A stretch of 64,000 bases of DNA from Amedibacterium intestinale (GTDB lineage Bacteria > Bacillota_I > Bacilli_A > Erysipelotrichales > Erysipelotrichaceae): positions 124,001-188,000 of the forward strand of contig NZ_AP019711.1 in NCBI RefSeq assembly GCF_010537335.1, given 5' to 3'. The notes under the pieces are model-generated. The model saw only the letters and a program-made list of their open reading frames with translations. It did no database searches and had not been told where the DNA came from. Positions 24,987 through 58,091 of the stretch are shown here, one piece after another. The position numbers were made by a program, and so were the translations under genes. The number at the start of each line of letters is the position of its first letter. Within the stretch, counting starts at the first letter, position 1.

Positions 24987-25085
24987 AAAAAAAGCTGATA
25001 ATTTCTGCGTCAAAAAAAGGCAGAAGTCATCAGCTAACATTAGCGGTTTTAGTTTATACAACTAAGGGAGAACTTCATTCCCACT
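24987..25085 (-). ncRNA. Fluoride riboswitch (crcB motif) with overlapping terminator
   Basis: Minus strand. The 17-nt 5' part GGGAATGAAGTTCTCCC matches the conserved first stem and loop. An extra small hairpin (TTAGTTGTATAAACTAA) follows. Then come AACCGC and the conserved GCTGATGACTTCTGCC. The pseudoknot GAAGT/ACTTC is intact. The last segment of the aptamer is also the 5' arm of a terminator: GCTGATGACTTCTGC pairs with GCAGAAATTATCAGC, followed by seven U (24987-24993). Fluoride binding should block the terminator and turn the antiporter gene on. Confidence 0.93.
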
Positions 25086-25090
25086 GCAAA

Positions 25091-25120
25091 ATCATAACAA
25101 AAAGAATTATCATTTGTCAA
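25091..25120 (-). promoter_or_regulatory. Promoter of the fluoride riboswitch transcript
   Basis: On the minus strand TTGACA (25115-25120) and TATGAT (25091-25096) are 18 bp apart. Transcription would start at the first base of the aptamer region. Confidence 0.85.
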
Positions 25121-29691: not shown

Positions 29692-29767
29692 GGAGGTTTA
29701 GCTCAGTTGGGAGAGCATCTGCCTTACAAGCAGAGGGTCAGCGGTTCGAGCCCGTTAACCTCCACCA
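29692..29767 (+). tRNA. tRNA-Val (anticodon TAC), copy 1
   Basis: Acceptor arms GGAGGTT/AACCTCC, anticodon loop CTTACAA, encoded CCA. Confidence 0.97.
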
Positions 29768-29773
29768 TGAAAT

Positions 29774-29849
<76 letters not shown>

Positions 29850-29857
29850 TTAATGAT

Positions 29858-29933
29858 GACCCGTTAGCTCAGTTGGTAGAGCATCTGACTTTTAATCAGA
29901 GGGTCGGGCGTTCGAATCGCCCACGGGTCACCA
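29858..29933 (+). tRNA. tRNA-Lys (anticodon TTT), copy 1
   Basis: Acceptor arms GACCCGT/ACGGGTC, anticodon loop CTTTTAA, encoded CCA. Confidence 0.97.
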
Positions 29934-29943
29934 TTTAAAAAAT

Positions 29944-30017
29944 GCGGGTGTAGTTCAATGGTAGAACTTCAGCCTTCCAAGCTGACTACGTGAGTTCGAT
30001 TCTCATCACCCGCTCCA
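29944..30017 (+). tRNA. tRNA-Gly (anticodon TCC), copy 1
   Basis: Acceptor arms GCGGGTG/CACCCGC, anticodon loop CTTCCAA, encoded CCA. Confidence 0.97.
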
Positions 30018-30035
30018 TCTTAAATAAAAAAAACT

Positions 30036-30111
30036 GGAGGTTTAGCTCAGTTGGGAGAGCATCTGCCTTACAAGCAGAGGGTCAGCGGTTCGAGCCCGTT
30101 AACCTCCACCA
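30036..30111 (+). tRNA. tRNA-Val (anticodon TAC), copy 2
   Basis: Identical to copy 1 at 29692. Confidence 0.97.
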
Positions 30112-30117
30112 TGAAAT

Positions 30118-30193
<76 letters not shown>

Positions 30194-30200
30194 TTTTAAC

Positions 30201-30284
30201 GGAGAGGTAGCGAAGTGGCTAAACGCGGCTGACTGTAACTCAGTTCCTTTTGGTTCGGCGGTTCGAATCCGTCCCTCTCCACCA
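30201..30284 (+). tRNA. tRNA-Tyr (anticodon GTA)
   Basis: 84 nt with a long variable arm, acceptor arms GGAGAGG/CCTCTCC, anticodon loop CTGTAAC, encoded CCA. Present only in the second block. Confidence 0.95.
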
Positions 30285-30292
30285 TTAATGAT

Positions 30293-30368
30293 GACCCGTT
30301 AGCTCAGTTGGTAGAGCATCTGACTTTTAATCAGAGGGTCGGGCGTTCGAATCGCCCACGGGTCACCA
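30293..30368 (+). tRNA. tRNA-Lys (anticodon TTT), copy 2
   Basis: Identical to copy 1 at 29858. Confidence 0.97.
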
Positions 30369-30378
30369 TTTAAAAAAT

Positions 30379-30452
30379 GCGGGTGTAGTTCAATGGTAGA
30401 ACTTCAGCCTTCCAAGCTGACTACGTGAGTTCGATTCTCATCACCCGCTCCA
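30379..30452 (+). tRNA. tRNA-Gly (anticodon TCC), copy 2
   Basis: Identical to copy 1 at 29944. Confidence 0.97.
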
Positions 30453-52822: not shown

Positions 52823-52827
52823 GAGAT

Positions 52828-52861
52828 AATGAAAAGAAGCACATATGTGCTTCTTTTCATT
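52828..52861 (+). terminator. trxA terminator
   Basis: Perfect palindrome with 17-bp arms, AATGAAAAGAAGCACAT paired with its complement. The U-run after it is weak, so it may leak into the short ORFs downstream. Confidence 0.7.
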
Positions 52862-52882
52862 ATTAAGTTTAAAGGGAGTTGT

Positions 52883-52942
52883 ATGAATATAATTTATAGA
52901 GGGGAAAATTATATTACAGATATTTTCTATCTGTACTTATAG
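52883..52942 (+). CDS. Short ORF 1, 19-residue peptide MNIIYRGEN...
   Basis: ATG after AAAGGGAG. The peptide begins MNIIYRGENYITDIFY and ends YLYL. Compared with its twin at 53072 the second half looks shortened by small deletions, so this copy may be decayed. There is no signal peptide or known peptide family that I recognise. Confidence 0.5.
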   Translation: MNIIYRGENYITDIFYLYL

Positions 52943-53006
52943 TATAGTACTATCTTGTCACAAAAGTGTGTCCAAACTATGTTAAATTATGTGGGGGATA
53001 AAACAA

Positions 53007-53039
53007 AAGAAATGCACTTTTATTCGAAGTGCACTTCTT
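53007..53039 (+). terminator. Hairpin between the two short-ORF modules
   Basis: AAGAAATGCACTT pairs with AAGTGCACTTCTT across TTATTCG. One mismatch. A weak terminator or an RNA-processing hairpin. Confidence 0.5.
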
Positions 53040-53071
53040 AATAATTATAAAGTTTATGAAAGGGAGAAAGT

Positions 53072-53149
53072 ATGAATATTATTTATAGAGGGGAAAATAA
53101 TCATACAGCAGATAACTATTATCTATCTGCTGACTATAGTATAGGATAA
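53072..53149 (+). CDS. Short ORF 2, 25-residue peptide MNIIYRGEN...
   Basis: ATG after GAAAGGGAGAAAG, a strong site. The peptide starts MNIIYRGENNHTADNYY and ends LSADYSIG. It is rich in Tyr and Asn/Asp, uncharged at the C-terminus and not membrane-like. Good Shine-Dalgarno spacing and duplication speak for translation. The function is unknown. Peptide signal, RiPP precursor or regulatory leader peptide are all possible. Confidence 0.55.
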   Translation: MNIIYRGENNHTADNYYLSADYSIG

Positions 53150-53283
53150 AGTTATCATATAAGTATGTTGAAACTATGTTAAATTATGTGTGTTCTGCAT
53201 AAAAACACTCAAAATTATGTGATATGATATTTTCCTTAGAAGAAAAAGAGCTTACATGGTATAATCATAAAGAGGTGTAAGAC

Positions 53284-53661
53284 ATGCAGATTACAAATTT
53301 AAAGACAGAAGAAATTTTAGAATATGCACAAAAACAATTTCCAAATATGTATATAAGTTTAGATGAAACCGATTTTTATTTGCCATCCATAGAAAGTGGA
53401 GAAATATGTGTAGAAGGAATTGATCATCCTGTTTATGTGAGTACACACTACGCTTATGAAGATCATTTGGTAAATGGAAATCAAACGCGTTATAAAATAC
53501 CGATTTCTATTTTTTATGTAAAAAAAGATGCATATGATGTTATTTATGATAACAGGGGATGCTGCTTTGTGCCATATATAGAAGATGGATGCATGCAGCA
53601 TGTATCTTATCAAGAGTTTCTGGATATGATACCTACATTTGTAAATATCGTAAAAATTTAG
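53284..53661 (+). CDS. Hypothetical protein
   Basis: 125 residues after an AGAGGTG site. It has no membrane helix or signal peptide. Predicted alpha then beta: ILEYAQKQFPNMYISLDETD, then GEICVEGIDHPVYVSTHYAY and FVPYIEDGCMQHVSYQEFL. I do not recognise the family. It is acidic and probably cytosolic. TATAAT lies about 20 nt upstream. Its terminator is at 53801-53840. Confidence 0.65.
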   Translation: MQITNLKTEEILEYAQKQFPNMYISLDETDFYLPSIESGEICVEGIDHPVYVSTHYAYEDHLVNGNQTRYKIPISIFYVKKDAYDVIYDNRGCCFVPYIEDGCMQHVSYQEFLDMIPTFVNIVKI

Positions 53662-58015: not shown

Positions 58016-58091
58016 GACTCCTTAGCTCAGCTGGCAGAGCAACTGACTCTTAATCAGTGGGTCTAGGGTTCGATTCCCTAAGGAGTCACCA
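58016..58091 (+). tRNA. tRNA-Lys (anticodon CTT), CCA encoded
   Basis: Acceptor arms GACTCCT/AGGAGTC, anticodon loop ACTCTTAAT, T-loop GGTTCGATTCC, encoded CCA. The mobile-element remnant ends about 220 bp upstream. Confidence 0.97.

Follow-up and report, generated by a model that had tools for sequence, protein, structure and literature searches.

Two tandem minus-strand genes for putative UCCC-bearing small RNAs downstream of trxA in Amedibacterium intestinale

In the 64,000-nucleotide stretch of the Amedibacterium intestinale genome analysed here (the window; contig NZ_AP019711.1, positions 124,001 to 188,000), two tandem modules downstream of trxA are highly likely to be minus-strand genes for related trans-acting small RNAs (sRNAs), which would be activated through a conserved operator and whose UCCC motifs would block the Shine-Dalgarno sequences of several mRNAs. 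Judged from sequence comparison, the two repeats are not peptide genes and each module is a complete minus-strand sRNA gene, with its own promoter, a conserved structure, a terminator and no coding frame in cis, the features of a trans-acting sRNA. An earlier note on this DNA had described the modules from their plus strand and had offered an RNA as an alternative to a peptide; the RNA was the right choice, but it is placed here on the opposite strand with its own promoter, which makes read-through from trxA, suggested at the time as the source of RNA, unnecessary.

Organisation of the two sRNA genes

On the minus strand every module follows one order. Operator CACATAATTTAACATAGTTTCAACATACTT is separated by 17 nt from the -10 box TATACT, after which come two stem-loops, the second bearing UCCCC in its loop, then a C-rich linker (CUCCCUUU) that is unpaired, and finally a terminator hairpin. 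The operator of copy 2 is made up of three ACATANTTT-type repeats (53161..53190); neither its position nor its length varies among 24 aligned promoters. Its PWM score is 40.5, with the next best non-sRNA site in the window at 11.4. The -10 box TATACT (53138..53143) stands at a spacing that is invariant in the 24 promoters, and transcription is predicted to start at about 53131-53134. The RNA of about 130 nt (53000..53134) folds with z = -6.3 and is matched in the genome by two covariance models (R1, E 7.5e-16; R2, E 7.0e-16). It consists of stem-loop 1 (53107..53131) and stem-loop 2 (53070..53106, with CCCCUC in the loop at 53088-53093), both recognised by folding and by covariation, an unpaired anti-Shine-Dalgarno linker UUUCUCCCUUUC (53058..53069) and a terminator (53000..53039) with a 13-bp stem and a U-rich tail. 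An independent pattern scan picked out this terminator on the minus strand, with none expected in shuffles.

In copy 1, the operator (52964..52993) was located by operator search and promoter alignment and the -10 box TATACT (52941..52946) by promoter alignment. The RNA of about 110 nt (52826..52936) folds with z = -10.4 and is matched by R2 in the genome at E 3.4e-8. Stem-loop 1 (52916..52934) and stem-loop 2 (52886..52915, with CCCCUC in the loop at 52899-52904) were placed by folding; compared with copy 2, its stem has changes in both arms, and it is also shifted, which counts against the proposed explanation. The anti-Shine-Dalgarno linker ACAACUCCCUUUA (52870..52882) was assigned from the motif layout. 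Downstream of trxA lies a perfect 19+19 nt palindrome (52826-52863) that probably ends both trxA on the plus strand and copy 1 on the minus strand. This terminator (52826..52864) was identified by folding and missed by the terminator scan; for copy 1 it is less certain because this copy has no separate U-run, which likewise counts against the proposed explanation.

Conservation of the RNA structure

Like the two window copies, relatives of these RNAs have much more stable folds than shuffles do (z of -6.5 to -8.3). Covariation, named in the earlier note as the observation that would favour an RNA, proved strong: in an alignment of 26 sequences to a six-sequence model, pairing holds in 93.5% of cells and 8 of 13 pairs have changed on both sides, a result equalled by 0 of 500 shuffles. 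When one stem arm was slid out of register, pairing in these sequences fell to 25-44%. For helix 1 in the same model-based alignment, 99.4% of cells are paired and 4 of 6 pairs have changed on both sides. The six-sequence seed was chosen because whole-RNA alignments made with MAFFT put the first stem in the wrong place. A hand alignment of 23 members, which was guided by folds and is thus biased towards structure, was concordant, with stem 1 paired in 99.3% and a double-change score of 0.276, where the shuffles reached at most 0.116.

Promoter, operator and putative activator

All 24 aligned promoters share an identical 57-nt architecture, in which the three ACATANTTT repeats stand at promoter positions 2, 12 and 23 and the -10 box is TATACT. 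None of the 24 has a good -35 box, and this absence suggests that the RNA promoters are activator-dependent. Overlapping the operator is a further promoter-like pair, TTAACA/TATGAT, which counts against the proposed explanation. In the host genome, an operator with a well-placed -10 box rises above the chance background only at the three RNA genes. Across 57 genomes of the family, and allowing up to two mismatches, the operator pattern matched 29 times and its reversed control 0 times; 27 of these matches (two of them divergent) run into such RNAs.

The activator would be a dedicated protein, probably an OmpR-type response regulator, that binds the three repeats just upstream of the -10 box and switches on all copies together. 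Three candidates were considered and rejected. An autoregulated response regulator was set aside, and no activator is named here, since none of the 17 OmpR-type regulator loci in the host genome has a convincing operator. The PhoP or WalR operator (TTAACA-N5-TTAACA) is similar, but T is seldom found at position 21, and the perfect TTAACA repeats of the genome lie elsewhere. Lastly, a two-component system located 1.5 kb from the RNAs in one genome (G006) has no clear host orthologue (best 46%). Perfect or near-perfect, Pho-box-like triple and quadruple TTAACA-N5 repeats were observed in the host genome at 1162215-1162242 and 637212-637250; they are unlike the RNA operator.

We put forward only tentatively, as a possibility that we do not favour, that the system is a family-wide ancestral regulatory hub, in which one transcription factor would use a conserved operator almost only for one to five UCCC sRNAs per genome. 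If so, a whole response would be executed via RNA instead of protein genes. The promoter signature makes the activator of the RNA family findable.

Relationship to known small RNAs

The earlier note knew of no matching family, and Rfam covariance models likewise returned none at gathering score. With E up to 10, no sensible family and no LhrC match was obtained for the region, and the weak matches at this relaxed threshold mostly fit the AT-rich palindrome. In the literature on this bacterial group no description of such an RNA was found, which is limited evidence as the search covered only a minority of subscription papers.

Two groups of sRNAs are similar in layout. LhrC1-5 of Listeria monocytogenes are multicopy, several of them in a row, and LisRK-dependent, with a promoter element needed for the two-component regulator; three CUCCC sites, in loop A, the linker and the terminator loop, can bind the ribosome-binding site of lapB (PMC4132741). 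The present RNAs resemble LhrC in being multicopy and partly tandem and in being G-poor. Their UCCC layout comes close to that of LhrC without full agreement: among 23 members, the motif occurs in the stem 2 loop of 22, in the linker of all 23 and in the terminator loop of 12. They differ from LhrC in that the loop motif lies in the second stem-loop rather than the first, in their operator, in the lack of an Rfam match and in the two window copies, which have two UCCC sites each instead of three and none in the terminator loop; the missing third site also counts against the proposed explanation. The streptococcal csRNAs of the CiaRH regulon possess an unpaired region with anti-Shine-Dalgarno and anti-AUG sequences, a direct-repeat operator plus -10 box, multiple copies and two-component regulation (PMC3091779). 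Multiple copies, a direct-repeat operator with a -10 box and an unpaired anti-Shine-Dalgarno linker are common to the present RNAs, whereas the operator here is ACATANTTT three times over (24 promoters) and in csRNAs the CiaR sequence NTTAAG-N5-TTTAAG. The present RNAs also have one more stem-loop, anti-AUG letters (CAUAC) in the paired 3' arm of stem 2 and no sequence match to csRNAs. A UCCC motif is used against Shine-Dalgarno sequences by RsaE/RoxS of Staphylococcus and Bacillus as well (PMC4132741). The present RNAs, in contrast, gave no match to RsaE/RoxS in the Rfam scans. The promoter and copy number of RsaE/RoxS are also unlike those described here.

Because neither a match to the LhrC covariance model nor a CiaR operator before the -10 box was found, the RNAs were filed as a new family and not as LhrC or csRNAs. 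By sequence comparison they are a new sRNA family of a known kind, with no detected homology to either group, and by analogy they would act like LhrC and csRNAs without being assigned to either.

Proposed mode of action and target searches

From the resemblance of the UCCC motif and the layout to those of LhrC and csRNAs, we infer translation-blocking RNAs under operator control. Comparative sequence and structure evidence points to two related RNAs of about 110-135 nt that would be transcribed from the minus strand, and covariation and folding show for each a structure made up of a 5' stem-loop, another stem-loop whose loop holds UCCCC, an unpaired linker and a terminator. By analogy with LhrC and csRNAs, the UCCC sites would pair with the GGGA core of the Shine-Dalgarno sequence in several mRNAs, and the pairing would block ribosome entry and lower expression of these targets. 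Several copies may provide dose and slightly different target ranges.

Target searches of the host genome found no conserved target mRNA and no long perfect complement in any mRNA. One candidate, an OmpR-type response regulator gene (host 632696-633370 +; L005, L213), has a ribosome-binding site complementary to the copy 2 linker over 13 nt without mismatch, and also a longer imperfect match to copy 2. It was rejected as a target: the match falls within the 3' end of an upstream coding frame and, among four close orthologues, is conserved only in that of G054.

The absence of a long mRNA complement, together with the short redundant motifs in loops and linker, would also fit a reading in which the minus-strand RNAs are real but their C-rich sites bind or titrate a protein, such as an RNA chaperone or translational regulator, and not mRNAs. 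The linker is conserved over 12-15 nt, longer than the UCCC core, which likewise fits such binding. Against this, the linker is complementary to the Shine-Dalgarno sequence plus its flanks, and the known RNAs that share this motif and layout target Shine-Dalgarno sequences; we regard protein binding as unlikely and retain mRNA pairing as the preferred mode of action.

Distribution, copy number and genomic neighbourhood

Homologous modules, single or in two to three copies, were identified beyond the host's genus but within its taxonomic family, among them in the genomes of Longicatena caecimuris DSM 29481 and Amedibacillus dolichus DSM 3991. Model R2, which describes promoter and core over 127 positions, was applied with a cut-off of E <= 0.01; its E-values are rough (short calibration) and the weakest matches were only partly read. 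Of the 315 genomes searched in the order, 208 gave matches, with 201 in the host's own family, where they cover most of the genomes searched, and only seven in the other family, all weak (best E = 7.5e-4). An RNA family uncatalogued in Rfam is found in roughly two of every three genomes examined, and almost every one of these belongs to a single family. Twenty further loci were read as a check, and promoter and layout were found in 19; the checked loci often have the linker UUUUCUAUCCCCUUAA in place of CUCCCUUUC. No viral or phage homologue was found.

Exactly three copies are present in the host genome, all on the minus strand: the window pair (host 177058-177190 and 176870-176993) and a third, dispersed copy (302583-302712; loci L112 and L086). 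The latter has the linker UUUUCUAUCCCCUUAA, a class common to many other genera, and UCUCCCCUU in its terminator loop. Relatives carry one to five copies per genome. A sibling class, seen at five loci (L071, L117, L118, L119 and L200), has a much longer second stem-loop, with the C-rich motifs CUUCUCCU and UAUCCCCUU together in one large loop. At L164, L170, L167 and L211, from several genera, the RNA lies directly upstream of an ORF starting ATGTGYATHTTYTG (MCIF...), possibly a HIT-family gene. A 125-aa ORF in the window (53284-53661 +) is without a Pfam match, and its homologues (35-56% identity) adjoin such RNAs in G043, G052 and G038.

Four genera retain the position next to trxA, namely the host's (with G052) and those of G043, G038 and G014; outside these the RNAs occupy other genomic places. 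This conserved adjacency, the convergence of copy 1 on trxA and the palindrome common to both would be in keeping with copy 1 acting chiefly on trxA, as a cis-antisense regulator or one that shares its terminator. Such a role is very unlikely, however, as copies elsewhere in the host and in G006, G054, G040 and G125 have no neighbouring trxA and yet retain promoter, loops and linker, and action in trans remains the preferred reading.

Plus-strand reading frames

The tandem repeat reported in the earlier note is real. On the plus strand, copy 1 has an ORF of 19 aa from the ATG at 52883 (MNIIYRGENYITDIFYLYL, then stop) and copy 2 one of 25 aa from the ATG at 53072 (MNIIYRGENNHTADNYYLSADYSIG, then stop); re-read from the sequence, both begin MNIIYRGEN and have the lengths first given. 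AAAGGGAG stands upstream of each of the two ATGs, the tail AAACTATGTTAAATTATGTG occurs twice, and a hairpin lies between the copies (53007-53039). Identity between the copies is 90% over 39 nt around the starts and 80% over the 56 nt surrounding the tail. With copy 2 as query against the whole 2.49-Mb genome, copy 1 was retrieved at E = 1.6e-22; the repeat is therefore not due to chance.

The letters read as Shine-Dalgarno sequence and ATG are the reverse complement of the minus-strand anti-Shine-Dalgarno linker CUCCCUUUC and of the stem 2 arm CAUAC. Likewise, the tail common to both copies is the minus-strand operator in reverse complement. A pair of paralogous small proteins or leader peptides encoded on the plus strand, with selection on the peptide start or a leader function as had been suggested, would be in line with the good Shine-Dalgarno sequence, the ATG and the nine first residues common to both window copies. 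This is scarcely credible, given that the minus-strand RNA, through its linker and stem 2, accounts for the conserved Shine-Dalgarno sequence and ATG, and that in many relatives the frame is cut short while the flanks are conserved, the very pattern that had been named as speaking against a peptide. From the equivalent ATG, the relatives' frames run for 2, 3, 3, 4, 5, 6, 9 or 11 codons or are open, reading MKF, MNF, MK, MKIL, MIYNS, MKNIEG and MNIIEGDLFHT, each followed by a stop, among others. A small protein gene was rejected on the same ground, as homologues have no conserved reading frame. An anti-Shine-Dalgarno RNA of this kind mimics a small gene, with Shine-Dalgarno sequence and ATG, on the opposite strand and is a trap for small-ORF annotation.

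A small mobile MITE-like repeat that folds by chance, to which the tandem and dispersed copies might point, has a negligible probability in view of only three copies in the host genome, a neighbourhood conserved across genera, stem covariation with a fixed promoter and no terminal inverted repeats seen.

Other features of the window

A fluoride riboswitch (Rfam RF01734, 47.9 bits) was identified at 25014-25091 on the minus strand. The tRNA cluster at 29692-30449 (+) looks duplicated, the tRNA scores of 29692-30014 recurring in order at 30036-30449 with one extra tRNA. Between 55870 and 57998 lie several small ORFs, one with a BRO/antirepressor-like start (MENEIKLFEGNQIRSAWDNEKEEWYFSVVDVVGVL), beside a tRNA at 58016-58088; this region is perhaps the remnant of an integrated element.
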